Virus record (IMG/VR): IMGVR_UViG_3300042987_002524
Location: 1-46,493 of that record
Direction: 5' to 3' (one strand)
DNA from: a virus
DNA: 46,493 nt
A model generated the notes under the pieces. The model worked only from the letters and a program-made list of their open reading frames with translations. It was not told the origin of the DNA and made no database searches. A program made the translations under genes and the position numbers. Of the stretch, positions 11,100-46,493 are shown piece after piece (within the stretch, counting starts at the first letter, position 1; every line of letters starts with the position of its first letter).

Positions 11100-11123
11100 A
11101 ACGCAAGAATTTGAGACAGCTAT

Positions 11124-11195
11124 CGCGGGGTAGTTCAGTGGTCGAACGCCAGATTCATAATCTGGAGGACGTCGGTTCGAATCCGGCCCCCGCCA
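11124..11195 (+). tRNA. tRNA with CAU anticodon (Met or Ile2)
   Basis: A complete 72-nt cloverleaf. D stem GTTC/GAAC with a short 7-nt loop AGTGGTC, anticodon stem CCAGA/TCTGG with loop TTCATAA (anticodon 11156-11158), 5-nt variable loop, T stem GTCGG/CCGGC with loop TTCGAAT, discriminator A and no encoded CCA. The acceptor pairs over six positions, but 1-72 is a C:C mismatch. That recalls initiator tRNAs, yet the three G:C pairs expected in an initiator anticodon stem are absent. It could be elongator Met, or Ile read after lysidine modification of the CAU. Confidence 0.85.
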
Positions 11196-11221
11196 TTTGA
11201 ATGTGCAAGCTGTTCGAGGTA

Positions 11222-11503: not shown

Positions 11504-12652
11504 ATGCAGTTTCTTTCCATTCTGGCGGGGTGGCGGACGTACCTGGCGAATGCCGGTAGCTTGCTGATGGGTCTGTCGCAGATCATGGTCGCAATTGCGA
11601 CGGCCACGGGCGGGCTGACCCTGGAGAATGGTGTCGCGGTCAGCGTTGTGCTGCTCGGGCTGTCGCAGGTGTTTCGTGCTGCGGCTGGGATCTTCCAGCG
11701 GATGGCGACTCAAACGGTTCAGCAGAATCTGGCCGAAATGTGGGACGATATTTCGCAGGTGCGGCAGCTGATCGACATGATGATTAAGCCTGCCGGCCCG
11801 GTGAATCCCTCGCCGCCGGTTCCGTTTCCGGATGATCCTGGGCGTCCTGTCTCTTCCGGGCTGATTCTGTTCGCGTTGCTGCTGATGGGTGGTTCAGCAA
11901 TGGCTGTCCAGCCGAAGGCGATCGTGAATGGTCCCAAGGTTGCCGAAGCCGGGGAAGAATTGATCTTCGACGCCTCGATGTCTGAGGGTGAGCCGGATCT
12001 GTTTGAGTGGCGGGTGTATCCGGCATTAGCTGGCAAAAAGCAGTTGACGGTGCTGGATGGTGGCAAGCGGGTTCGGTTGTCGTCGTATCCGGGGACATAC
12101 CTGATCCGTCTGATGGTCGCAAACCGTGAAGGGATCAGTGATCACGATCATCAGGTATATATCCCTGGTCCGGTCCCGTGTCCTCCTGCTCCGACTCCTG
12201 GGCCTGTTGTTCCGGTGCCGGTGCCTGGTCCGACACCGACACCGCCAAACCCTGCGCCTGTTCCTGTTCCGGTCCCTGTTCCGGTGCCACCCGTCCCGCC
12301 GATGCCGGATGTGTTGCCCGCGGGGGAGTTCGATGGTCTGCCCGCAGCGGTCAAGGCGTTGGCTCTGGCAGTGAACTCGGCCAGTCGAACGGCGGAAGCG
12401 GCGAAGCTGGCGGATGCCCTGGAAGCGGTCGCGGCACAGATTGCGGCGAAGTCGTTGACGACTCCTGACGCGATCGTGAAAGCGATCGGTGCGGCTTTCA
12501 ATCAGGCAGTGACGCCAGCATGGGACACCGATTTTCGCGTAAAGGCTGTTGCCAGGATGAAGGATCTCTATTTGGCAGGAAAGCTGCCGAATGGCGATCG
12601 GTGGGCGGCGATGCTGCGCGAAGTTGTTGCTGGTCTGCGGGCGGTGAAATAG
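11504..12652 (+). CDS. holin-like / PKD / proline-rich membrane protein
   Basis: A 382-residue protein. Two hydrophobic segments (about 14-36 and 42-64) look holin-like. A third, SGLILFALLLMGGSAMA (about 118-134), ends like a signal sequence. Residues about 136-222 resemble a PKD beta domain (IVNGPKVAEAGEELIFDAS, SYPGTYLIRLMVANREG). Residues 225-275 are a PVPVP/PTPTP spacer able to cross a wall. The C-terminal 100 residues are Ala-rich and helical. It lies in the place lambda keeps lysis genes, directly upstream of the protease-thioredoxin gene. I infer an envelope-spanning lysis or adhesion protein; no family is certain. AAGGGTG precedes the ATG. Confidence 0.6.
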   Translation: MQFLSILAGWRTYLANAGSLLMGLSQIMVAIATATGGLTLENGVAVSVVLLGLSQVFRAAAGIFQRMATQTVQQNLAEMWDDISQVRQLIDMMIKPAGPVNPSPPVPFPDDPGRPVSSGLILFALLLMGGSAMAVQPKAIVNGPKVAEAGEELIFDASMSEGEPDLFEWRVYPALAGKKQLTVLDGGKRVRLSSYPGTYLIRLMVANREGISDHDHQVYIPGPVPCPPAPTPGPVVPVPVPGPTPTPPNPAPVPVPVPVPVPPVPPMPDVLPAGEFDGLPAAVKALALAVNSASRTAEAAKLADALEAVAAQIAAKSLTTPDAIVKAIGAAFNQAVTPAWDTDFRVKAVARMKDLYLAGKLPNGDRWAAMLREVVAGLRAVK

Positions 12653-12696
12653 GTTTCTGGCGTTCCTGGTTCTTGGTCTCTGGTTCTTGGTTCTGG
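12653..12696 (+). repeat. degenerate GTTCTTG heptamer repeat
   Basis: About six imperfect heptamers (GTTTCTG, GTTCCTG, GTTCTTG, GTCTCTG, GTTCTTG, GTTCTGG) fill the gap before the next gene. Confidence 0.8.
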
Positions 12697-12704
12697 GGTA
12701 CGGC

Positions 12705-14414
12705 ATGAATTTTGTTCCACGATGGACGCGGGGTCAGTGGTGCGGCGCGTTGCTGATGTTTGTCGGCTGCGTCGGTGCGGGGTTGTTCGGGTCGAGTCTG
12801 ATTCCGGCTTCGCACGCGATCCCGTCTGTTCCGTTGTCTCAGCTGGGCCTGGCGGTCGATCATGCGGAAAAGTCGCAGGTTGTGGCTGCGTCTCTGCCGC
12901 CGTTTTTGCTGGTCGGTGATGCGGCTGGTGAAGACAACTCGAAAAAGAATATCCGCCTTTGGGACGCTGTTTTGCAGGTCCGGGGCGAGCATCTTCCCAA
13001 TGTGCCTCAGCAGATCGGAGATTGCGTTTCGTGGGGTGCCTGTAATGCGGTGAACTATCTGCAGGCCGTGCAGATTGTGCGGGGGCCGCCTGCGGAGTTT
13101 CATCCTGCCTTCCCGCCGTTTACTTACGGAACGTCGCGGGTCGATGTCGGCCGCAAGCATGGTTCCCGGTTTTCCGGGGATGGAAGTGTCGGGGCTTATG
13201 CGGCTGAGGCCTTGCGTGATTTTGGCGTCCTGCGTGCAGATCATGAAAAATGCCCGCCCTACAGCGGATCGGTCGCGCGGCAGTGGGGGGCGAGTGGTCC
13301 GCCAGCCTGGGCGAAGGAAATTGCCAAGTCGAATCTGGTGCAATCCGTCGCGCCAGTGAACTCAGCGGAAGAGGCCAGGGACGCGATTGCGGGGGCTCAT
13401 TGTCCCGTCACGATCGCAAGCGGCTGGTGGGGGACCAACGATATTCCCGTAGTGCATGGTCGCCGGGTCGCTCGCCGGACAACAGCGTGGGCTCACCAGC
13501 AGTGCCTGATTGCCTACGACGGATCCGGGCCTGAGCCATTGTTCTATTGCCTGAATTCCTGGGGGCCGAATGCACATCCCGCGCCGATGCAGGGTGAGCC
13601 ACCTGGGGGCTACTGGATTCGCTGGGCGGATGTTGACCGGATCTGCAAAGAGGGGGATTCGTGGGCGCTGAGTGCGTTTGATGGATTCCCGGCAGCGGGT
13701 CCGGATTGGGATGAGTTACTTCGTCGGCCGGCAACGTCGCCGGTGACGTCAATGGATGTTCCGAAAGGGGGAGGCAGGGAAATGCGTGAGTGCATGGGTT
13801 CGCCAGGGTTTTTAATGGTCTTATGTCTGGCGGTGTCGCTGGGGGGCTTGCTGCTTTTTGCAATAGCGCTCCGGGCGGAGCGAAAGCGGATGGGCCAAGC
13901 GGTAACAATGCTGCTCATCGGTCTCTGCGCAACAAGCTCATACGGCTGGGCTCAAGACTTCGAAGCGGCCGCCAGTCGGAGCGGTCCCCCGCAAAGTCCT
14001 GCGGCTGTTGCTGTCGCAAACAATGCGACTGTGACGACACCCGCTGATCCGATGGACTGGACGGCAGCGACAACCAGACCTGTGATCGATCTGCTCAATG
14101 CAGGCTGCCAGGACATTGCGTCCGATCATCCGCAGGCACTGGTTTTTCTGATGGAGCGGGGTTGCAGCGACTGTGAGCGGCTTGATGCGTATATCAAGCG
14201 TGAGCTGGTGCCGAAAGGCTGGATTGAATCCGATCGGCCCGATGCAGATTTCCGCATGGTCGACATCCGTAAAAACCCGGAAATCGCGCGGCTGTACGGT
14301 GTTGAGGTTGTGCCGACGATCGTCTACCTGAACCGATTCGGCCGCATCGTGGATCGGCGTGTCGGGTACACGGTGGGTCAGTCGTTGACGAGTCCGCTGC
14401 TTAGTTGCCGATGA
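12705..14414 (+). CDS. membrane-anchored papain-like cysteine protease fused to thioredoxin-like domain
   Basis: A 569-residue protein. TM1 is at about 13-34. Residues 85-330 form a papain-type (C1) domain with nucleophile C107 (IGDCVSWGACNAVNYL), H264 (AWAHQQCLIAYDG) and N284 (CLNSWG). TM2 spans 367-389 and TM3 399-416, flanking a basic loop RAERKR. Residues 455-569 are thioredoxin-like with C487-S-D-C490 and a cis-proline VVPT (P537). The positive-inside rule puts both catalytic domains outside the inner membrane. It would cut proteins and reduce disulfides in the envelope. With no other endolysin seen and its place before the terminase genes, it is the best lysis-enzyme candidate. ATG 12705 is chosen; the longer frame reads through the repeat. 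Confidence 0.8.
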   Translation: MNFVPRWTRGQWCGALLMFVGCVGAGLFGSSLIPASHAIPSVPLSQLGLAVDHAEKSQVVAASLPPFLLVGDAAGEDNSKKNIRLWDAVLQVRGEHLPNVPQQIGDCVSWGACNAVNYLQAVQIVRGPPAEFHPAFPPFTYGTSRVDVGRKHGSRFSGDGSVGAYAAEALRDFGVLRADHEKCPPYSGSVARQWGASGPPAWAKEIAKSNLVQSVAPVNSAEEARDAIAGAHCPVTIASGWWGTNDIPVVHGRRVARRTTAWAHQQCLIAYDGSGPEPLFYCLNSWGPNAHPAPMQGEPPGGYWIRWADVDRICKEGDSWALSAFDGFPAAGPDWDELLRRPATSPVTSMDVPKGGGREMRECMGSPGFLMVLCLAVSLGGLLLFAIALRAERKRMGQAVTMLLIGLCATSSYGWAQDFEAAASRSGPPQSPAAVAVANNATVTTPADPMDWTAATTRPVIDLLNAGCQDIASDHPQALVFLMERGCSDCERLDAYIKRELVPKGWIESDRPDADFRMVDIRKNPEIARLYGVEVVPTIVYLNRFGRIVDRRVGYTVGQSLTSPLLSCR

Positions 14415-19656: not shown

Positions 19657-21239
19657 TGGGGGCTCGTACTGACCTGAGTCTGACCGGATTCCGGGCCGAC
19701 TATGACATGATGAAAACGGGGCCGTTTCGTCCGATCCGGTCTGGTCTGGCTCCGATGGGTGCCGGGGCGGATTGGCATATTCGCAGCGATGCGCAGTATC
19801 TGCGGATGATTGAGCTTGCGCAGGATGTGATCCGCAACGACATGATTGTCGGCCAGGCGATGCGACGTCTGACCGATAACGTGCTGCAGGGTGGGTTTCC
19901 GGTCGATCCAAAGACCGGAAACGACGAAGCTGATCAGATCCTGAAAGATTCCTGGCAGGAATGGACCGGGGACAAAAAGCATTGTCATTACACCCAGACG
20001 ATGAGCTGGTCGAAAATCGAGGAGCTGACGTTTATGTCGGCCCTGGGGTGTGGTGATCATTTCAACGTGCCTACGGAATCCGGGCGGCTGGATACGATCG
20101 AGAATCATCGGTGTCGGACTCCAATGTTGGGGGCTCGCCCTGCCACAAAAAAGAATGTTGTCCTCGGCGTGCTGAAGGATGACGAAGGGATTCCGCAGGA
20201 ATTCTGGTTCACTCAGAAGGATGTCGGATTCAATCAGGTGTCGACGGTCGGGGCGATGGTTCGTCGTCCGGTCTGGCTGTCGAATGGTGAACCCGGTGTG
20301 TTTCATGCGATCGATCACAAGCGGTTTTCGCAGACGCGCGGTGTCACCTGCCTGGTGCCGATCTTTGATGCGGTCGGGATGAATGCCGATCTGCAGTTTT
20401 CCGCGTTGATCAAGCAAACGATTTCTGCCTGTTTTATCTGGGCGCGTGAGCTGGATTGGCAGGTTACCGGCGACGATCACGGGACCGCGGGTGAGGTTGA
20501 GGTACGTCAATCGTCGTCGGCCAGCCGGTTGCTGCAGCACATTTTTCCGGGTCAGGAAATCCCGCTCAAGCGGGGTGAGAAACTTGTGTCGCAGTCTCCG
20601 CAGGTTGGCGGGCATGACTTCATCAGTCATACGCATCTGGTCCTGCAGTTCATGTCTGTGAACCTGGATCTGCCGGTGTCGGTGATGCTGCTGGATCCGT
20701 CGGACACGAATTTCAGCGGGTGGCGTGGTGCGATCGATCAGGCCCGCATCAGCTGGCGACGTTGGCAGCAGTGGCTGATCGATGTTCTGCACTGTCCGAC
20801 GTACCGATGGAAAGTGCTGGACTGGGCGTCTGAGAATTCTGTCCGCGGTCAGAAACTGCGGGCGGCATTGAAGGGTGGGGCAAACCTGCTGGCTCATGTC
20901 TGGCATCCGGCAGGCTGGCCGTACATTGAGCCATTGAAAGACGCTCAAGCGGACTTCCTGGAATGGACGGGCGGGCTGAATTCGCGGCGTCGTGTTCTGG
21001 CCAGGAAGCAGCTGGATGTCCGGGTGATCGACTCGGAAGAGGTTGGTGATCTGGAATTCCGGGCCGATCTGGCGCGGGCGGCTGCAACGCGGCTGAATGA
21101 CAAGTATCCGGATCTGCCTCCGGTGGATTGGCAAATGTTCATGCCTGGTCTGCCGAAGGGCTTGACGATGGCGCTGTCGGCCGCACAGGAACCGCAGGCT
21201 CAGCCCAAGAAACTTGCTTCTGATGGGGGTGGTCAATGA
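19656..21239 (+). CDS. portal protein, lambda gpB-like
   Basis: A 527-residue portal, forming the dodecameric ring at one head vertex through which DNA passes. Early segment DAQYLRMIELAQDVIRND and MRRLTDNVLQGGFPV, middle FMSVNLDLPVSVMLLDPS and FSGWRGAIDQAR, and the tail WQMFMPGLPKG fit the lambda-type portal family. GGGAGGTGATC precedes the ATG, which overlaps the previous stop. It is itself overlapped by the protease start (ATGA). Lambda gpB is trimmed at its N-terminus, and the neighbouring protease could do the same here. Confidence 0.9.
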   Translation: MGARTDLSLTGFRADYDMMKTGPFRPIRSGLAPMGAGADWHIRSDAQYLRMIELAQDVIRNDMIVGQAMRRLTDNVLQGGFPVDPKTGNDEADQILKDSWQEWTGDKKHCHYTQTMSWSKIEELTFMSALGCGDHFNVPTESGRLDTIENHRCRTPMLGARPATKKNVVLGVLKDDEGIPQEFWFTQKDVGFNQVSTVGAMVRRPVWLSNGEPGVFHAIDHKRFSQTRGVTCLVPIFDAVGMNADLQFSALIKQTISACFIWARELDWQVTGDDHGTAGEVEVRQSSSASRLLQHIFPGQEIPLKRGEKLVSQSPQVGGHDFISHTHLVLQFMSVNLDLPVSVMLLDPSDTNFSGWRGAIDQARISWRRWQQWLIDVLHCPTYRWKVLDWASENSVRGQKLRAALKGGANLLAHVWHPAGWPYIEPLKDAQADFLEWTGGLNSRRRVLARKQLDVRVIDSEEVGDLEFRADLARAAATRLNDKYPDLPPVDWQMFMPGLPKGLTMALSAAQEPQAQPKKLASDGGGQ

Positions 21240-22621
21240 GTGGTCTTCGTCCGGCCTTGATTCGTGATCCGATGCCTTGGGAATGGAATGAACTCGAGGC
21301 ACGCATGGTGCGTCCGGAGTATTCGCGGGTGGGCGATTACTTCGATTTGTGGGCAATGCACGAACCGCAGTTTGCGGGTCTGTTCGATCTGGTGATGCGG
21401 ATGGATCTGGCGGAACATGTCAAGGCTTCACAGGCGGCTCCGGTCGCGAAGTCTGACGATCAGGGTCTGGCGGTCAGTCGTGACGGGATCGCGGTGATCT
21501 CGCTGTCTGGTACGCTGATGAAACAAGCCAGCAGTTTTTCCTCGTCAACGTCGACCGTCGATGCTCGCCGCAAGGTCCGCGATGCCAAGAGTCGGGCGGA
21601 TGTGCTGGGGGCTTTGTTTGTCATCGATTCGCCTGGCGGAACGGTGGCAGGCAATCAGGCATTGGCTGAGGACATTGCGGCACTGCAGGCCGAGAAGCCG
21701 ACGGCGGCATTTATCGAGGATCTGGGGGCATCTGCCGCGTACTGGCTGGCATCGCAGACGGGGCATATTGCGACCAATGGAACGGGCCTGGTCGGTTCGA
21801 TCGGGACGTTTATGGCTGTTCGTGACACCAGTAAGGCGGCTGAGGACATGAACGTCAAGGTTCATGTGATCCGGGCAGGTGCTTTGAAGGGTGCTGGCAC
21901 GCCTGGCACTGAGATTACCGACGAAATGCTGGCTGCGTGGCAGCAGATGGTCAATCAGTTGAATGATCAGTTTGTCGGTGCTGTGGCCAAGGGCCGCAAG
22001 ATGACTGTTGAGCAAGTCCTGGCGATTGCCGACGGTCGGGTTTTTGTGGGCCAGGAAGCGTTGAAAAACGGCCTCGTCGATGCGGTCTGGTCGATTGAGG
22101 ATTCTGTCCGGCTGCTGACCGAGCGTATCGGATCAGGCCGCAAATCAGGCTCAAATTCAAGTAAAGGAGGTCGGCAGATGACGGCGGCGACGTATCAGGA
22201 ATTGAAAGCAAATCTGGTGGGGGCTGATCCAGCCTTCATCACATCCCAGCTGGACGCCGGGGCAGAATTGCCAGCGGCAATGTCGGCATGGATGCAGGAG
22301 CAAAACAAGCGGATCCAGTCGGCCAAACAGGAAGCGGCCGATGCGGCAGCAGCTGCAGCGTTGAAGCCGGCGGCAGGTCCTGGGATCGGGGCTGGCACCG
22401 AAGACAACCCGGAAGCGGGTGGCGAGTCTGGCGATGTTGTCGCCGACTGGCACGCCTTGATGGAAGACTGTTTGGCGAAGACTGGCGGCGATCAGGACGC
22501 GGCGTTGCTGCGTGCGGCCGGAAAGAATCCCGCCCTGCACGCTCAATTCAAGGCGGCGACGAATCCCGAGTTTGCCGGGCAGATTTTGAAACACGCCAAG
22601 AAACTTGGCGTTGATGTCTGA
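21236..22621 (+). CDS. S49-family head maturation protease with scaffold domain
   Basis: A 461-residue protein equivalent to lambda gpC. Residues about 80-300 form a SppA/S49 serine protease with nucleophile S166 (DLGASAAYW) and general base K218 (GALKGAGTPG), plus the SPGG motif at 132-135. Residues 315-461 are a Gln/Ala-rich helical scaffold region. The protease clears the scaffold after the shell is built. Start overlaps the portal stop. An internal strong ribosome-binding site and ATG in the same frame make the scaffold part as a separate product. Confidence 0.92.
   Translation: MSGLRPALIRDPMPWEWNELEARMVRPEYSRVGDYFDLWAMHEPQFAGLFDLVMRMDLAEHVKASQAAPVAKSDDQGLAVSRDGIAVISLSGTLMKQASSFSSSTSTVDARRKVRDAKSRADVLGALFVIDSPGGTVAGNQALAEDIAALQAEKPTAAFIEDLGASAAYWLASQTGHIATNGTGLVGSIGTFMAVRDTSKAAEDMNVKVHVIRAGALKGAGTPGTEITDEMLAAWQQMVNQLNDQFVGAVAKGRKMTVEQVLAIADGRVFVGQEALKNGLVDAVWSIEDSVRLLTERIGSGRKSGSNSSKGGRQMTAATYQELKANLVGADPAFITSQLDAGAELPAAMSAWMQEQNKRIQSAKQEAADAAAAAALKPAAGPGIGAGTEDNPEAGGESGDVVADWHALMEDCLAKTGGDQDAALLRAAGKNPALHAQFKAATNPEFAGQILKHAKKLGVDV
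22178..22621 (+). CDS. nested in-frame scaffold protein (Nu3-like)
   Basis: Internal start at codon 315 of the protease gene: AAAGGAGG (22163-22170) lies 7 nt before ATG 22178, a stronger signal than most gene starts here. The 147-residue product (MTAATYQELKANLVG...) has the helical Ala/Gln-rich middle and C-terminal helices expected of a capsid scaffold. Lambda makes Nu3 from gene C in the same way. Same frame and same stop as the protease. Confidence 0.75.
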   Translation: MTAATYQELKANLVGADPAFITSQLDAGAELPAAMSAWMQEQNKRIQSAKQEAADAAAAAALKPAAGPGIGAGTEDNPEAGGESGDVVADWHALMEDCLAKTGGDQDAALLRAAGKNPALHAQFKAATNPEFAGQILKHAKKLGVDV

Positions 22622-32771: not shown

Positions 32772-33418
32772 TGGACACCAGATATTCACTGAACGCAGGA
32801 TGCGGGATCCGCTACCCAACGGCACCAGCGACTTATGGCCTGGATGACTGGGCGAATTACGCACATGCAACGGTGAAGCTGGGCCAGCAGTCTGGTGTTC
32901 AGTACACAGGGCTCGCTCTGTTCTCGTGTCCCTGCAATCGGTTTGCGACGATCAGCAGTGCGTCCTTAACGCTGGATCTGTCGGGCGGGACGCTCGGCAG
33001 TAGCTTTTTTCAGATTGCCGTTTTTGCGATTGCGGCAGACAACCAAGGATGGCCATCTGACGGGTCGCAGGTTGCCCTGGATTTCAGCCACCGCTTAACG
33101 ACCGGCGCAGGCCCTGTCAGTGCCGTGTCTGGGGCGCACGCCTATGACGTGACTGCGGCGCTGCAGGAGGTTGTCGATCGCGTTGGTTACGCTCCGGGCA
33201 ACTTTGTGATGTTTTATATCGGCTGGTCCGCGACTGGTGACTGGGCAAATATCGCGACCAAGGGGATTGACACTCCGAACGGTCCGCCAGTGTTGCAAGT
33301 AACCTGGTCTGGCGGCGATAGCGGTGGAAGTGGCGGCGGCGGTGGGGGCGGTGGTCAGTCTGGTGTCAATGCGTCGTTTTTGGTTGGGATGATGTCTCAG
33401 GATGAGGGTTTGCTGTGA
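32771..33418 (+). CDS. DNRLRE-like beta-sandwich fibre protein
   Basis: A 215-residue protein with a beta-sandwich of the DNRLRE/carbohydrate-binding type: SSASLTLDLSGGTLGSS, IAVFAIAADNQGWPSDG, YDVTAALQEVVDRVGY, and a closing PPVLQVTW. A glycine run (about 190-200, GGGSGGGGGGGG-like) links to a hydrophobic C-terminus. Probably binds a cell surface sugar. Starts TAATG over the previous stop. Confidence 0.65.
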   Translation: MDTRYSLNAGCGIRYPTAPATYGLDDWANYAHATVKLGQQSGVQYTGLALFSCPCNRFATISSASLTLDLSGGTLGSSFFQIAVFAIAADNQGWPSDGSQVALDFSHRLTTGAGPVSAVSGAHAYDVTAALQEVVDRVGYAPGNFVMFYIGWSATGDWANIATKGIDTPNGPPVLQVTWSGGDSGGSGGGGGGGGQSGVNASFLVGMMSQDEGLL

Positions 33419-34965
33419 ATTTGCTTTCTACTGCTCAACCGGCGGCTGTCCGCAGTGAATTGCGATTGCAGGAACTGCGATCGAGTTTTCCGGACGATCC
33501 GCAGCCTGCTCCGGAAATCAATCTGGGCCTGATCCTGGAAGAGAGTTCTCCGATCCCGATTACGCTGGGCGAAGGGCGGGGGATTGTGATTCCGGGGGGC
33601 GGGATCTACCTGCGATCGGCCTGGGTGACGATCCGGATGATCCGGCATTTCGGCTGTGATCTGCCGATTGAGCTTTGGTTGTTACCATGGGAAACAGTCG
33701 CCGATGACGAAATGTTTCAACTCCGTCTGCTGGGCGTGAAAATCCGGACGGCGATTCCCGGTTACTGCCTCGACGAAACGATCACGGGTTACGCCGGCGT
33801 TCCGGTCTGGCTGGCAGGCTGGCAGTTGAAAGTTCAAGCGGTCTGTCAGTCGGCGTTTCAGGAAGTGATTTTCCTGGATGCAGATTGCTATCCGGTCCAT
33901 GCGGACTGGATTAAGGCATTGACGAGCGGCCCGACGTTTCTCGGGGACATCATCGAATCCGATCACCTGCTGTCGGAAGCGTCCTGCCGGGCTATGTGTG
34001 TCGGTCGCCGCACTCCGGTGGATTCCGGGTGCTTTTACGTCGTCAAGGACAATGCCGCGTGGCTGCAGCTGCTGGCTGTCCTGAATGGTCCGAATCATGT
34101 TCGGGACACCTATCGGCTATTTTTCGGGGACAAGGATACCTGGTGGATCTCGCACGAATTAACCGGGTCTGCGTATCAGATTCTCGGCCGCGGCGGCGTG
34201 ATCGGGAATCTGGAAGGGATCTATCACGCTGTCGGTGTCGTGCATCGGACGGGCCATAAGCTCACCAGCGGTCAGCCTCGGAACACTCCGCAGCGTTCTC
34301 AGTTCAGCGGTCCCTGTGAGGATCTTGTTCAAACCAAGCTGCGCACCTGGCCGCCTCTGCATGTCCGCGGTGAACGTGATTGGGAGATTGTCCGGAGCGT
34401 GATCGAGCTGGACGAATACCACCTGCGCGATCTGTCCGATCTGAGGACGGTGATTGATTGCGGCGGGCATGTCGGTTCGTTCTCGGTGGCCGTGCTGCGA
34501 CTGTTTCCGGGGGCCAGGGTGATTGCGTTTGAACCCAGTGCTGAGAATGCGGCCGCGTTTCGCCTGAACTGTCCGCAGGCGGAATTGCATGTGACGGCAC
34601 TCGGCAAAGGGACGGGCGAAGTCGAGTTGTGGGCTGTGCCTGGTGATACAGCGTTTTCGACGGATGACCGGATTCCGGGTTCGGAAGCCAACGGGGAAAC
34701 GGCGGCGGTGTCCCGTCTGTCGGATTTCCTGGTCGATCTGCAGGCTGTCGATCTGCTCAAGGTCGACATTGAAGGGGACGAATACGCGGTTTTTGCGGAT
34801 CTGGCCGAAACCGGGCAGATTCGCAAGGTTCAGCGGATCGTCGGTGAGTGGCATCAGTTTGATCGTGTCGGTGAGTTGCTGGCGCTGTTGCGTCCGACTC
34901 ATCATGTCACGCTTTGCGTGCATCCGTGGGATCATGGCTACTTCGAAGCGGTGAGGGTCCAATGA
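33415..34965 (+). CDS. fusion of glycosyltransferase and FkbM methyltransferase
   Basis: A 516-residue fusion. Residues about 55-290 look like a mannosyltransferase-type glycosyltransferase with VIFLDADCYPV (D155-x-D157, metal and sugar-nucleotide site) and a VDSGCFYVV acceptor-side loop. Residues 340-516 are an FkbM-family methyltransferase: TVIDCGGHVGSFSVAV (SAM loop), VIAFEPSAENAAAF, and the family signature DLLKVDIEGDEYAVF. It would add a sugar and methylate it. GTG start overlaps the preceding stop, so it is made with the fibre proteins, probably to glycosylate fibres or receptors. An unusual combination for a phage tail operon. Confidence 0.8.
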   Translation: MNLLSTAQPAAVRSELRLQELRSSFPDDPQPAPEINLGLILEESSPIPITLGEGRGIVIPGGGIYLRSAWVTIRMIRHFGCDLPIELWLLPWETVADDEMFQLRLLGVKIRTAIPGYCLDETITGYAGVPVWLAGWQLKVQAVCQSAFQEVIFLDADCYPVHADWIKALTSGPTFLGDIIESDHLLSEASCRAMCVGRRTPVDSGCFYVVKDNAAWLQLLAVLNGPNHVRDTYRLFFGDKDTWWISHELTGSAYQILGRGGVIGNLEGIYHAVGVVHRTGHKLTSGQPRNTPQRSQFSGPCEDLVQTKLRTWPPLHVRGERDWEIVRSVIELDEYHLRDLSDLRTVIDCGGHVGSFSVAVLRLFPGARVIAFEPSAENAAAFRLNCPQAELHVTALGKGTGEVELWAVPGDTAFSTDDRIPGSEANGETAAVSRLSDFLVDLQAVDLLKVDIEGDEYAVFADLAETGQIRKVQRIVGEWHQFDRVGELLALLRPTHHVTLCVHPWDHGYFEAVRVQ

Positions 34966-35624
34966 GAGTTTCCATTGTGACGATCAACCGCCAGCCGTCG
35001 TATCTGCAGGAATTGCTGGCGTCGATCAGCGCAGCGGATTTTGATCAGCTGTCGCTGACGTTTTGCGTGGGCGACCGGGACGACTCGCACATTCCGGAGC
35101 AAGTCCCTGGCGATGTTCGCCGGGTGCGGACGCTGCCGAATGCGGTGAGGGAGAATCACGGTTCGCACATTGATTCTGTCGTGAATCATGCGGTCGCGAT
35201 ACTGGAATCGTCGGTGATCCTGGAAGACGACGTTGTTGTTTCGCCGCGGTTCTGTGAGCTGTTGCGGCCTGCGGTCGAGGAAGCGTATCGGCTGCGGCCG
35301 AATGGTCATTTTGTGCTGTCCCTGTCGAGCGATCAGGTCTGGCCGCGGGGTGCGGCGATCGTGCCGTATCCTCTGGATGTCTATTCGGGGACGATGGGGA
35401 TGTTCGTTCCTGCGGAGCTGCAGTTTGATCTGTTCCGGTTCATGATCAGCCATCTGGAAGCAGAATTCGTGTCGCCAGACTGCACGATTGCGGAATACTG
35501 TCAGACTCGGGGGATTCCCCTGTACTGCATCACTCAATCGATCGTGAAGCATATCGGCGTCCAGTCCGCGATTTCTGACAGGGTTGTATCGGTTCAGTGT
35601 CCCACATTTGCCGGGGTTAAATAA
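34962..35624 (+). CDS. glycosyltransferase
   Basis: A 220-residue protein of the small glycosyltransferase type: starts MRVSIVTINRQPSYLQELL, has ILEDDVVVSPRFCELL (E-D-D metal/nucleotide motif as in GT2/GT25-like enzymes) and CTIAEYCQTRGIPLYCI near the end. It overlaps the GT-FkbM gene by ATGA and the next tail gene by TAATG, so the three are one translational unit. Likely acts on the same glycan. Confidence 0.75.
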   Translation: MRVSIVTINRQPSYLQELLASISAADFDQLSLTFCVGDRDDSHIPEQVPGDVRRVRTLPNAVRENHGSHIDSVVNHAVAILESSVILEDDVVVSPRFCELLRPAVEEAYRLRPNGHFVLSLSSDQVWPRGAAIVPYPLDVYSGTMGMFVPAELQFDLFRFMISHLEAEFVSPDCTIAEYCQTRGIPLYCITQSIVKHIGVQSAISDRVVSVQCPTFAGVK

Positions 35625-41891: not shown

Positions 41892-43166
41892 TTAAACGGC
41901 GGGGATGTTGATCCGGTCACCGAATGGATGGGGGGCGCTGCTATCGGCCGCGGCCCAAAGTACGGGGTAGGCTGGTTGGTCGTCTGGGAATGAGCTGTAA
42001 AGGTCGGTCAAACAAATCAGAACGGCGGGGGCTTCGTCGGTGTTCTGGTCGATCCATTCAAAGACCGGCCCGTGATCGGTTCCGCCTCCCCCGCAGGGTG
42101 TGAGCGTTAACGGTCCATTGCCTGGAGTCCATTCGTCAACCCGGACGATATCAGAGTCGTGATATAGAATCGTGATCTTGCTCGCTCCCTGGCGTGCGAT
42201 GTCGTCGAGTTCTGAAGCGAAGCGGGTCAAGGTCGATTCGCCGATAGATCCGGAAGTGTCGACAGCGGCGATGATGTGACCGATCTCGAGCGAATTCATT
42301 GAGGGCAGGTAGAGTCCCTGGTGTACAAACCGGCGGTTTGGTCGTTTCCAGTTGTAATCGCGCTTTGCGGGTCGCGTGATGTACTCTCGTAGTTCTGCTT
42401 TCCAGTCGGCCGCGGGGGCCAGGACGGCGCCGCACAATCGCGACAATCCGGCGGATAGTTCGCCGCGTCGTTCCGCGGCCTGTTGAGCTGCGGCGACATT
42501 GGCGGACCACTCAGAATCGAGCTGTGTCTGTTCGGACGATTCCGCCGGCGTTCCGTCGTCTGCTTGGGGGTCGATCACTCCGCCACATTGGCCAGGGTCC
42601 GCGGATCCTGATTGATCTCCGGACTGATCGCCTGGCGTGCTGTCGTCTCCGTTGGGATCGGGTTGTTTCGATGCCTGCAGTTGTGCATAGTATTCCTCAG
42701 CCGATCGGCCAGGCTCGAAGTCGTGATATTGTCCTTCGCCTGGGATCAAAGCGCCGTCTGGCAGGGTAAAGCCGGATTCGGTCAGCAGCGGGTTAATTGC
42801 CAGGTCGGCCGCTATGTTCCAGTCAGAAGCGTCTCGGCCCGATCGCCGCGAAAAGTGCTTGTTGACACAATGCATTACTTCATGGGCCAGGAGTCCGACT
42901 AGCTCGGGTTCCGTCAAGGTCTGCAGGAAGTCGGGATTGTAGATTAACCTGCGGCCGTCGGTTGCGGCGGTGTCGACGTTCCAGTCTGGCGCGAATTTCA
43001 GGCGCATCACCAGCGAAGCGAAAAACACCGATTTTGCGTCTTTTGCGAGAATCAATCGGGTCTTTCCGGCGGATACGATCCGCGCTGCGGTCTCTTCTGA
43101 TTTCATGCGGTGCGCGGTCTGTTCGAGTTTTTCGATAGCCTGGTTGGCGGTTAGTTCTGCGGGCAT
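41892..43166 (-). CDS. metallopeptidase-like / VWA-domain protein
   Basis: A 424-residue protein of the DUF2201 type. The N-terminal half has an HExxH metal site (GLLAHEVMHCVNKHF, H95-E96-x-x-H99). A Gly/Asp/Gln-rich linker (about 165-215) follows. The C-terminal half is a von Willebrand A domain with an intact MIDAS: D303-T-S-G-S307, T363 (GGTD) and D388 (CLTDLY). Such proteins pair with MoxR AAA+ ATPases, and the adjoining operon supplies one. They act as chaperone-like complexes that load metals or remodel targets. Start ATG 43166; a longer frame begins at TTG. Confidence 0.85.
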   Translation of the reverse strand: MPAELTANQAIEKLEQTAHRMKSEETAARIVSAGKTRLILAKDAKSVFFASLVMRLKFAPDWNVDTAATDGRRLIYNPDFLQTLTEPELVGLLAHEVMHCVNKHFSRRSGRDASDWNIAADLAINPLLTESGFTLPDGALIPGEGQYHDFEPGRSAEEYYAQLQASKQPDPNGDDSTPGDQSGDQSGSADPGQCGGVIDPQADDGTPAESSEQTQLDSEWSANVAAAQQAAERRGELSAGLSRLCGAVLAPAADWKAELREYITRPAKRDYNWKRPNRRFVHQGLYLPSMNSLEIGHIIAAVDTSGSIGESTLTRFASELDDIARQGASKITILYHDSDIVRVDEWTPGNGPLTLTPCGGGGTDHGPVFEWIDQNTDEAPAVLICLTDLYSSFPDDQPAYPVLWAAADSSAPHPFGDRINIPAV

Positions 43167-43197
43167 GTCTTTCGTCTTTCGGTTTGGGGATCGGGTC

Positions 43198-43242
43198 GCC
43201 AGTGTCAACCCGCCAGGAAGTCCGGCGGGTTGTCGGTGGGGA
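43198..43242 (-). repeat. intercistronic hairpin repeat, copy 1
   Basis: About 45 bp nearly identical to the copy at 44160-44203. CAACCCGCC and GGCGGGTTG (43206-43232) form a 9-bp stem. It sits in the gap between two minus-strand genes. Confidence 0.7.
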
Positions 43243-43247
43243 TCCGG

Positions 43248-44102
43248 TCAATTCGACATTGAGAACAACAGCAAGGGGCCAGCGGATGCCGCGTCGAGTA
43301 GGTTGGCTGTAGCCTCTTGGTTGGTTGCATCGTCCAAAGCGCGTTTCAGGTCGGGCAGCGCCATTGAGAAAGCGCTTTCGTAGGCTTCAATTTTCGCGCG
43401 GAGTGACCGGGCTTTTTTCTTGGCGGTTGCAGCTGCTTTCAATCCGGTTACGGGATCGTGCAAAGTCTCGTCAATTGATCGGGCTTCCCTGGCGATTTCT
43501 GCGGACAATGCGGCCCGCAGGACGGTTGCCGAGTGTTCGTCTAAGAATGTCCGCAGGGCGAATGCCTGGTTTTTGCTTCCAGCGGATTCGACTGCGGCCG
43601 CGACGGTTTCCCAGCGTTCAAAGTTGTTATTCGGGATCCAGTAGATTCCGCCGGAAGGTCGCAACGTCGTTCCCTGCAGGTCAAATACGATGTCGACCAG
43701 ACATCGCGAGACGTTGTGATATGGGACGGTGTTACGATTGATCTGGAATTGTTCCGTGATCCTGGCATCGATCGCAGTATCAAACTGATCGGTATCGATC
43801 GTCAGTGATGCTGTCGCTGATGCGGTCAGAACGTGTGAGAAGTTGTTGCGCTTGTCGAATTGATCCCGCCGGACTGAGACTACTTCGAAAGTCGTCCCAG
43901 CACCTTTGACGGGGAATATTTCGTGATCGGGGAAACAGTGTTCCAGCGCGGCCTTGAGTGCGGCGTAGTCTGTCATTCGTTCCGGAATGAATTTCCGGAA
44001 TCCGCAGGCCGAAAGCGCGTTCGAGAGTGCGTTGTAGTCTGTCGATTCTCCCAGCGTCCAGAATACGGCGGATCCGGCGATGTCGTTTTGCAGTGCTGTC
44101 AT
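43248..44102 (-). CDS. DUF6744-like partner of the MoxR-VWA pair
   Basis: A 284-residue protein. The N-terminal 120 residues read as a mixed fold (VFWTLGESTDYNALSNAL, FEVVSVRRDQFDKR), and LRPSGGIYWIPNNNFERWE recalls the LRPxGGxYxxP motif I associate with the DUF6744 family found beside MoxR ATPases in phages. The last 110 residues are long helices (TAAAKKKARSLRAKIEAYE). It may be the substrate or adaptor of the ATPase. AGGAAA precedes the ATG. Family name is from memory, moderate confidence. Confidence 0.6.
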   Translation of the reverse strand: MTALQNDIAGSAVFWTLGESTDYNALSNALSACGFRKFIPERMTDYAALKAALEHCFPDHEIFPVKGAGTTFEVVSVRRDQFDKRNNFSHVLTASATASLTIDTDQFDTAIDARITEQFQINRNTVPYHNVSRCLVDIVFDLQGTTLRPSGGIYWIPNNNFERWETVAAAVESAGSKNQAFALRTFLDEHSATVLRAALSAEIAREARSIDETLHDPVTGLKAAATAKKKARSLRAKIEAYESAFSMALPDLKRALDDATNQEATANLLDAASAGPLLLFSMSN

Positions 44103-44159
44103 GATCGATTTCCTTTGTCGGGGATATTCGCGCCCCTGGTCGCGTTTGGCGGATAGGTT

Positions 44160-44203
44160 GCCAGTGTCAACCCGCCAGGATTCCGGCGGGTTGTCGGTGG
44201 GAA
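44160..44203 (-). repeat. intercistronic hairpin repeat, copy 2
   Basis: Second copy of the 45-bp element, stem CAACCCGCC (44168-44176) / GGCGGGTTG (44185-44193), between the MoxR and DUF6744-like genes. Both copies follow a stop codon on the minus strand. Confidence 0.7.
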
Positions 44204-44204
44204 T

Positions 44205-45197
44205 CTATGCGCGGGAGCTAGTGAAAATCTCCTTATGTTGATTGATCCATGCGCCGGCCGCGGGGACGGTCAGAATCGACGGGGCGATTGATAGAACGTC
44301 GGTAAACAGCACAGCGCCGAATTCGACGGGCAGGCGCGTTAGATAGGTGATCAGCGCCGGGTATTTGTTGGCGGGCAGGGTTCGGGATCGGTCCGCCAGG
44401 GCAGCGCACACGGCAAAAAGCGCGGACGGTTCGCGCGGGATTGCGGTATTAACGGGATCGGCCAGGATTGCATCGGGTTGTGGAAGTTCGTTGAAAATCC
44501 GCAGGAATCCGACGAATTCCGCAGCAGCGCCGGCGCCGATCGTTCCGGTTAAAACTTCCAGCTGCGTAGCGTCGGTGAGTGTCGGCAGAAGTCGCGAAAC
44601 TCGATGCCATGATCGGGGCGAACAATTGGCGCGATCAGCCTGAACGGTCTTTGCGTCAAACGAAAAAAGCAAGCCAGGCCGAAAGTCGATAAACGCGCGG
44701 ACGGCGGGATTGATCCCAGCGCCGGCGGCCCAGTGTTGCCAGTCCTGCCGAGAGACTTCTACGTCGACGTGTGTAAATCGACTGAGAACATGCGTAGCCA
44801 CTTGACCAGCGCCGGCGCGGTCTGTCGATCGGTTTGAGGCGGCGATAACCTGCCAGGATTCGGGCAGGTTGTCGACCAATCGCATTGCAGCGCATTGAGT
44901 AGCCTGCGGCGCCTGCGCGAATTCGTCGAGAAACAATATTCCGCGGGTTTCTGGTCGTGGCAGAAAATCTGGTGCGAGCCATTTGACGCGCTGACCGTCG
45001 TCCGCCGGCGCAGGCAGGCCGAGAAAGTCGACGGGCTCGAGCAGATTAACGCGCAGCGTCAGTAGCTCGATTCCCAACAATTCGGCCGCGGCCGAGACAA
45101 TCGCCGTTTTACCGATGCCAGGGGCGCCCCAAAGGTATAGCGGGGCGCCGGCTGAATTGGCGGATTGAATGGTAGATACAACGTCGGAAAGCTTCAT
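44205..45197 (-). CDS. MoxR-family AAA+ ATPase
   Basis: A 330-residue AAA+ ATPase. Walker A GAPGIGKT (24-31), Walker B ILFLDEF (87-93), sensor-1 ASNR (120-123) and an arginine-finger-like LSRF (R140) are all present. MoxR ATPases work with VWA proteins to remodel or activate client proteins; the VWA partner is two genes downstream. Start ATG 45197 with AGGAG 7 nt upstream; the longer frame reads through the leader. It would form a hexameric ring in the cytoplasm. Confidence 0.9.
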   Translation of the reverse strand: MKLSDVVSTIQSANSAGAPLYLWGAPGIGKTAIVSAAAELLGIELLTLRVNLLEPVDFLGLPAPADDGQRVKWLAPDFLPRPETRGILFLDEFAQAPQATQCAAMRLVDNLPESWQVIAASNRSTDRAGAGQVATHVLSRFTHVDVEVSRQDWQHWAAGAGINPAVRAFIDFRPGLLFSFDAKTVQADRANCSPRSWHRVSRLLPTLTDATQLEVLTGTIGAGAAAEFVGFLRIFNELPQPDAILADPVNTAIPREPSALFAVCAALADRSRTLPANKYPALITYLTRLPVEFGAVLFTDVLSIAPSILTVPAAGAWINQHKEIFTSSRA

Positions 45198-45256
45198 TTC
45201 GTCACTCCTGCAGGGAAATTCGCGCCCCGCCTCGCGCTTGGCCAAAACTGGCCAGG

Positions 45257-45448
45257 TTAATTGTGTGCTAGTTCCATCGTGAGCTGATAATGTCTGCGCA
45301 GGACGCGCTGACAATCCGCGCCGATCACGCATCGGCCGTCGGGAAGCGCTTTCGCCCAAAGACCGGCGCTATTCGCCTCGAATTCCGTGCAATCCCCGAT
45401 GGATACGGTTTGATGGGATTGAAGTAGCCTGGCGAATACGGATTGCAT
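45257..45448 (-). CDS. small protein of the operon
   Basis: A 63-residue protein (MQSVFARLLQSHQTVSIG, QRVLRRHYQLTMELAHN) with GAGGAG about 6 nt before the ATG, a strong start. No family recognised. Between the first gene and MoxR. Confidence 0.65.
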   Translation of the reverse strand: MQSVFARLLQSHQTVSIGDCTEFEANSAGLWAKALPDGRCVIGADCQRVLRRHYQLTMELAHN

Positions 45449-46060: not shown

Positions 46061-46140
46061 ATTATTCAAAAAAACGAAATAGGCTGAAAATCGCCGATTC
46101 TGCCGTTGGGGACAATTAGATTATCGAGAATTGCCAGGCA

Positions 46141-46493
46141 GGATGGTCTCACCGATCGTCTGCACAGCTTGCCAGGCAGGATGGTCTCACCGATCGTCTG
46201 CACACCTGGCCCGGCGGATGGTCTCACCGATCGTCTGCACAGCTTGCCAGGCAGGATGGTCTCACCGATCGTCTGCACAGCTTGCCAGGCAGGATGGTCT
46301 CACCGATCGTCTGCACAGCTTGCCAGGCAGGATGGTCTCACCGATCGTCTGCACACCTGGCCCGGCGGATGGTCTCACCGATCGTCTGCACGCCTGCCAG
46401 GCGGATGGTCTCACCGATCGTCTGCACAGCTTGCCAGGCAGGATGGTCTCACCGATCGTCTGCACAGCTTGCCAGGCAGGATGGTCTCACCGA
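46141..46493 (+). repeat. 36-38 bp tandem array, cut by the window end
   Basis: Nine complete units and a partial tenth begin at 46141, 46179, 46216, 46254, 46292, 46330, 46367, 46403, 46441 and 46479. Each has an invariant 25-bp core starting GGATGGTCTCACCGATCG, then a linker of 13 (type A), 12 (B) or 11 nt (C), order A B A A A B C A A. Every linker keeps a GCC-n-GGC dyad. Confidence 0.9.

Follow-up and report, generated by a model that had tools for sequence, protein, structure and literature searches.

A papain-thioredoxin fusion and its membrane-hairpin partner as the probable core of a phage lysis cassette

Introduction

Muralytic endolysins are the usual explanation of phage lysis. In phage lambda, the S-R-Rz/Rz1 genes bring together a membrane-hairpin protein, an exported lytic-type hydrolase and an exported proline-rich element in a cluster upstream of the terminase. 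A different type of lytic enzyme is represented by PeiW and PeiP (MEROPS C71), virus-encoded cysteine peptidases with a C-H-D triad and pseudomurein-binding repeats that lyse the walls of archaeal hosts; for cell lysis PeiP requires an anaerobic, reducing environment (PMC2989375). The SAR endolysin Lyz of phage P1, a lysozyme, is exported by an N-terminal anchor and, as cited in PMC6116005, is under thiol-disulfide control through isomerisation of its own disulfides. Papain-clan proteases also occur on prophages, as exemplified by bfp3 of the Bacteroides prophage Bfgi2 (PMC2873492). Here we analyse a viral locus that shares features with each of these systems and carries a papain-type enzyme in the endolysin position.

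Results

Gene pair and its genomic setting

The window, that is, the whole stretch of DNA analysed, is the IMG/VR virus record IMGVR_UViG_3300042987_002524 (positions 1 to 46,493; 46,493 bases). An earlier note made from the sequence alone had proposed that two of its genes form a lysis system directed at a protein wall. The open reading frame list contains both genes, at 11504-12652 and 12687/12705-14414, and their lysis-type position was borne out, with the pair immediately preceding the packaging genes. Downstream follow a ParB-like protein, the small and large terminase subunits (GpA type), the portal, an S49 head protease and the major head protein.

Several other features of the window were recorded. 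A tRNA-Met gene (11123-11196) lies immediately 5′ of the two genes. Positions 1-57 resemble the 3′ end of a tRNA gene beside an integrase-bearing region, comparable to a prophage attachment site; a second copy of this tRNA-like left end was sought within the window and not found. At the opposite end, in positions 46131-46493, a 38-base unit is repeated in tandem about 9.7 times, up to the right end of the record. The tail region includes an FkbM methyltransferase, a mannosyltransferase-like protein and a possible glycosyltransferase (33415-35624), which may modify the tail fibre or the host surface. On the minus strand, a putative metallopeptidase/VWA protein (DUF2201), a DUF6744 protein and an AAA ATPase adjoin one another (41892-45359).

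The partner protein

The upstream gene of the pair, hereafter the partner, has the following features:

11504..12652, plus strand: partner gene, 382 aa (open reading frame and model; homologue immediately upstream of the protease in pPLIM01 and in 24 loci)
11504..11785, plus strand: membrane hairpin, residues 1-94 (hydropathy; model helices 2-35 and 40-94)
11903..12172, plus strand: PKD domain, residues 134-223 (VIA Z 11.5 to the collagenase G PKD, 81 residues aligned)
12167..12334, plus strand: proline-rich linker, residues 222-277 (up to 26 Pro per 50 residues)
12338..12640, plus strand: C-terminal helical domain, residues 279-379 (model pLDDT about 90 or more)

From N to C terminus, the partner thus consists of the membrane hairpin, an internal signal or TM segment, the PKD domain, the proline-rich linker and a helical bundle. 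The PKD domain named in the earlier note was upheld by the fold match to collagenase G; its sequence match is weak (Pfam PKD 0.07-0.15, below the cut-off). The helical C-terminus was conserved more widely than the rest of the protein, with profile matches also in loci that lack the PKD domain. The partner had further been called holin-like. Hydropathy and the model agree with this in the topology of the hairpin, but the holin-like profile built from the relatives gives the window protein 1.7 bits only, and we rejected the N-terminal hairpin as a member of that profile. A comparison of the partner with the holin families of PHROGs likewise yielded no significant match. Its resemblance to a holin would accordingly be one of topology only.

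The papain-thioredoxin fusion

The downstream gene encodes a multidomain protein with the following features:

12705..14414, plus strand: papain-thioredoxin fusion, 569 aa (ATG start; an alternative TTG at 12687 is possible)
12747..12803, plus strand: N-terminal membrane anchor or signal, residues 15-33 (hydropathy; model helix 9-26)
12831..13682, plus strand: papain-fold catalytic domain, residues 43-326 (xylellain fold match, Z 23.1; Q102, C107, H264, N284)
13023..13025, plus strand: codon of the catalytic cysteine C107 (43-member alignment; site of intein-like inserts in relatives)
13803..13973, plus strand: two membrane helices with a basic loop, residues 367-423 (hydropathy; model helices 367-390 and 394-423)
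14124..14411, plus strand: thioredoxin domain, residues 474-569 (Pfam Thioredoxin_2; CSDC 487-490; VPT at about 536-538)

Basic residues precede the N-terminal anchor, and the helices at 367-423 connect the papain domain to the thioredoxin domain. Numbered from the ATG at 12705, the previously named papain triad (C107, H264, N284) and the thioredoxin CSDC motif (487-490) were both correct, and we add Q102 as the oxyanion residue. Of the three TM segments that had been assigned to the protein, two are clear by hydropathy, whereas the third (about residues 399-417) is a helix in the model with weaker hydropathy. From this topology we infer that the papain and thioredoxin domains both lie outside the inner membrane.

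The papain family was not detected when the window protease alone was compared with Pfam, and a phmmer search of the PDB with the window papain domain alone gave no match. Across the family, Peptidase_C1 (Pfam) was matched by 10 of 43 members (best 3.6e-7), and a profile of the 43 relatives identified a PDB cysteine protease, xylellain (1.2e-5). Xylellain was also the best PDB match of the AlphaFold model, in which the papain part has a pLDDT mostly above 90 (Foldseek 5.6e-11; VIA Z 23.1 over 238 residues, best here and in the other VIA comparisons meaning among the matches listed). Residues Q102, C107, H264 and N284 were invariant in all 43 aligned members and were kept in every full-length copy. 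Judged by alignment and model, the window enzyme is a C1-type papain fold with the Q-C-H-N active-site residues in order, and a predicted peptidase. The identity of a pseudomurein endoisopeptidase (C71) was considered and rejected: the triad is C-H-N with an NSW motif, and Pfam gave no C71 or repeat match.

For the thioredoxin domain, the Thioredoxin_2 match was 9.8e-6, at 26.3 bits against a Pfam cut-off of 27, and thioredoxin matches were also obtained in a BFVD search; the CxxC motif is followed by the later conserved proline (VPT motif). In PHROGs the protease is hardly represented, with 2 of the 43 members matching a 'peptidase' family. We saw no peptidoglycan-binding domain in the protease, and no known peptidoglycan hydrolase family matched the window protein or its 43 relatives. 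We class the enzyme, as a working term, as endolysin-like; by sequence it appears to be no member of the known endolysin families.

Relatives and the conserved module

When IMG/VR was scanned with single sequences (the full-length protease, the terminase, the papain domain or the partner's N-terminal part), at most one near-identical record was obtained, and the relatives were recovered by alignment-based scans. These gave at least 512 matching IMG/VR stretches, of which the best 80 loci were used, and all loci collapse to 55 clusters at 90% identity. The alignment scans also recovered five bacterial contigs, four from Planctomycetota and one labelled Proteobacteria; the hosts of the related viruses appear to be planctomycetes and other uncultured bacteria. 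Among named relatives, the first to be recognised was pPLIM01, a phage-gene-bearing 37-kb plasmid (phage-plasmid) of Planctopirus limnophila. In it, homologues of both genes adjoin, the protease gene being PLIM_RS21800, and are followed by HNH, terminase and portal genes of another type. When the same pair was looked for ahead of the terminase in other phages, a check that the earlier note had proposed, it was found in pPLIM01 and in several relatives. Overall, large terminases of three unrelated types follow the module at a distance of 0.8-7 kb.

The partner profile matched 24 loci, always on the same strand and immediately upstream of the protease, and nowhere else in those loci. Large viruses carry a shorter protein that resembles the partner C-terminus and either adjoins the protease or lies within about 5 kb of it; this protein is probably homologous to the partner C-terminus, as suggested by profile comparison (hhalign E 6.7e-6, probability 67%). 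In some of the large viruses, the partner homologue is located 0.7-5 kb downstream of the protease and does not adjoin it. Taken together, a partner or C-terminal homologue was present in 47 of 55 clusters, in all cases on the same strand and mostly beside the protease, while the partner profiles found no match in five clusters (L044, L074, L076, L080 and L090). Such tight pairing with a proline-rich partner might also arise if the papain enzyme served as a timer, with a lysis protein of the phage itself (partner or spanin) as its substrate and not the host envelope; we regard this as highly improbable, as no candidate would then remain for cutting the wall.

A small two-TM holin-like gene was found by profile near the protease in 25 of 55 clusters; the comparison of these proteins with PHROG holins was not significant (E 0.13-0.35). 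In large viruses, membrane-anchored proteins judged PAS-like by eye lie just 5′ of the holin-like gene (L026 2704-3270, L061 8033-8626, L071 5985-6563) and could be a sensor tied to lysis timing. Directly 3′ of the protease, three other loci encode small proteins rich in proline, each with a single TM segment at the N terminus (L005 2215-2622, L013 5558-5965, L019 9825-10547), which are possible spanin-like partners.

Thioredoxin was detected in 20 of 55 clusters, and in 15 of these 20 it was fused to the protease or encoded no more than 600 nt downstream (binomial about 5e-16, assuming uniform placement); it was not detected near the protease in the other 35. It is fused in L007 (WCGFC) and is a separate secreted gene in L014, L026 and L071. 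Since the thioredoxin gene of L014 has its own signal peptide and stands directly 3′ of the protease, the window protein looks like a fusion of two adjacent exported proteins. A small downstream gene in pPLIM01 was also considered as a thioredoxin and was ruled out by BLAST.

At the codon of the catalytic cysteine, the protease genes of L025, L049, L052, L071, L075 and L077 are interrupted by about 180-390 additional codons. Four of these inserts (L025, L071, L075 and L077) have intein-like termini, with a GxC start and an end in HN followed by C. Inteins favour such sites in important proteins.

Export modes

Three modes of delivery occur among the relatives: an N-terminal membrane anchor as in the window, a Tat signal (L032, L034 and L077), and no signal, the last of which may result from wrong start sites in L010 and L011. 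About five changes between delivery modes fall on the tree, and well-supported branches force at least two of them for the larger groups. Known endolysins likewise differ in export mode. Phages also employ proteases in assembly, and in some relatives the protease lies near tail genes, so that a role in the virion, in entry or in head maturation has to be weighed. Such a role is very unlikely: the membrane anchor or Tat signal directs the enzyme out of the cytoplasm, an S49-type head maturation protease is already present in the window at 21236-22621, and the papain-partner pair stands outside the run of head and tail genes both in the window and in pPLIM01.

Search for ordinary lysins

The earlier note had reported no lysozyme, amidase or endopeptidase in the window, and our Pfam, PHROGs and targeted searches agreed (one of them covering the best 25 of 53 families). 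Among protease-carrying records (40-46 per family), nothing exceeded the cut-off for any of eight peptidoglycan-hydrolase families: Amidase_2, Phage_lysozyme, SLT, Peptidase_M15_3, NLPC_P60 and CHAP were each found in 0 of 46 module-carrying records and Amidase_3 in 0 of 40, and M23 gave a single match, below the cut-off, in the record of L086. As controls we used 23 records picked by their GpA-type terminase, whose hosts differ from those of the module carriers. NLPC_P60 was detected in 11 of the 23 and Phage_lysozyme in 3, with either present in at least 12; Amidase_2 was found in 0 of 23. The module-carrying records are mostly metagenome contigs, many of them probably fragments, so an endolysin could lie on an unsequenced part or belong to an unrecognised family. 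The lack of ordinary lysins in the module carriers is therefore strong evidence, short of proof.

These counts also bear on whether the protease is a secreted cargo enzyme (moron) that alters the lysogen surface or blocks superinfection while an unrecognised enzyme performs lysis. The precedent is bfp3, carried by the Bacteroides fragilis prophage Bfgi2 beside that prophage's own amidase and holin (PMC2873492). In the present family, by contrast, no separate known lysin was found in the records searched, the protease occurs in many diverse viruses, and its linkage to an exported partner, and often to a holin-like gene, is nearly fixed; we consider the cargo role distinctly unlikely.

Discussion

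The planctomycete wall

Planctomycetes have long been described as protein-walled. The genome paper of P. limnophilus quotes, from another planctomycete, an SDS-resistant, proline- and cysteine-rich envelope with disulfides, and the same passage states that comparable data were lacking for P. limnophilus (PMC3035269). In 2015, intact peptidoglycan sacculi, stable in boiling SDS and sensitive to lysozyme, were isolated from P. limnophilus (PMC4432640). The earlier note had suggested an exit route independent of peptidoglycan, with proteolysis and disulfide reduction together breaking down a wall made of disulfide-linked protein. The older envelope chemistry, the recurring protease-thioredoxin linkage and the absence of a detected peptidoglycan hydrolase from the module-carrying records searched speak for such an exit. 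Its premise is weak, however, as P. limnophila, the host of the module-bearing pPLIM01, has a lysozyme-sensitive sacculus, and thioredoxin was not detected nearby in most clusters; we judge this route unlikely. Since the pPLIM01 host has a peptidoglycan sacculus, its phage most likely has peptidoglycan to overcome, either with the protease or with something unrecognised. In our judgement, peptidoglycan peptides and envelope protein have about equal odds of being the target of the protease.

Proposed lysis cassette

The wide conservation of the pair, its pre-terminase position, the retention of catalytic residues, the varied export and the lack of a recognisable canonical endolysin are consistent with the behaviour of a lysis module. 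The intein-like inserts at the catalytic cysteine of several lineages point the same way. We infer that the pair probably has a role in lysis. Because the enzyme occupies the position of a lysis gene and no ordinary wall-cutting enzyme was found, it is also likely that the two genes form the core of a phage lysis cassette with a papain-family cysteine peptidase in the endolysin's place. Known C1A peptidases cut proteins, which, like the lack of a visible peptidoglycan-binding domain, counts against an endolysin role.

In the proposed mechanism, the hairpin of the partner would open or mark the inner membrane, and its exported PKD, proline-rich and helical parts would extend into the envelope. 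The N-terminal anchor would export the peptidase, which, once released or activated, would cleave peptide bonds on which the cohesion of the envelope depends, in peptidoglycan peptides or else in a layer of protein and its links. Facing the same compartment as the peptidase, the thioredoxin would maintain the catalytic cysteine in reduced form against oxidising surroundings, open disulfides in the target, or both; protection of the cysteine could equally well be its role as opening of wall disulfides. A broader proposal, that a widespread class of phages opens the envelope with a papain protease and a dedicated thioredoxin and has no dedicated peptidoglycan hydrolase, is doubtful.

Our results indicate that a conserved papain enzyme occupies the endolysin position in many phages, some of which, at least, are phages of Planctomycetota, and that these phages have no recognised muralytic enzyme. 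Confirmation would provide a new class of enzyme for lysis and a means of probing what gives planctomycete envelopes their cohesion. In the literature covered, with subscription journals mostly outside its scope, we found no description of such a papain cassette, and nothing direct on pPLIM01 and planctomycete phage lysis. The cassette is testable because P. limnophila, which carries the module on pPLIM01, is a cultured species, with gene deletions described according to PMC6952346.

Comparison with known systems

The locus resembles lambda S-R-Rz/Rz1 in its membrane-hairpin partner, exported proline-rich element and exported hydrolase clustered upstream of the terminase, and differs in having a papain-type hydrolase, a PKD-fused partner and thioredoxin; a counterpart of the spanins would be putative. 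Xylellain (PDB 3OIS, papain family C1A) shares the fold and the catalytic set with the window enzyme at 15% identity, but does not come from a phage lysis locus and lacks thioredoxin. The protease bfp3 is likewise papain-clan and prophage-borne, but belongs to family C10. With P1 Lyz, as far as it is cited in PMC6116005, the fusion has in common an N-terminal anchor for enzyme export, whereas its thiol chemistry would reside in a distinct thioredoxin domain. PeiW and PeiP offer a parallel as virus-encoded cysteine peptidases with lytic action on a host wall, an action proposed for the window enzyme, which departs from them in its C-H-N papain fold and lack of a wall-binding repeat. By analogy with the need of PeiP for reducing conditions (PMC2989375), the thioredoxin may serve to keep the catalytic cysteine of the papain enzyme reduced.
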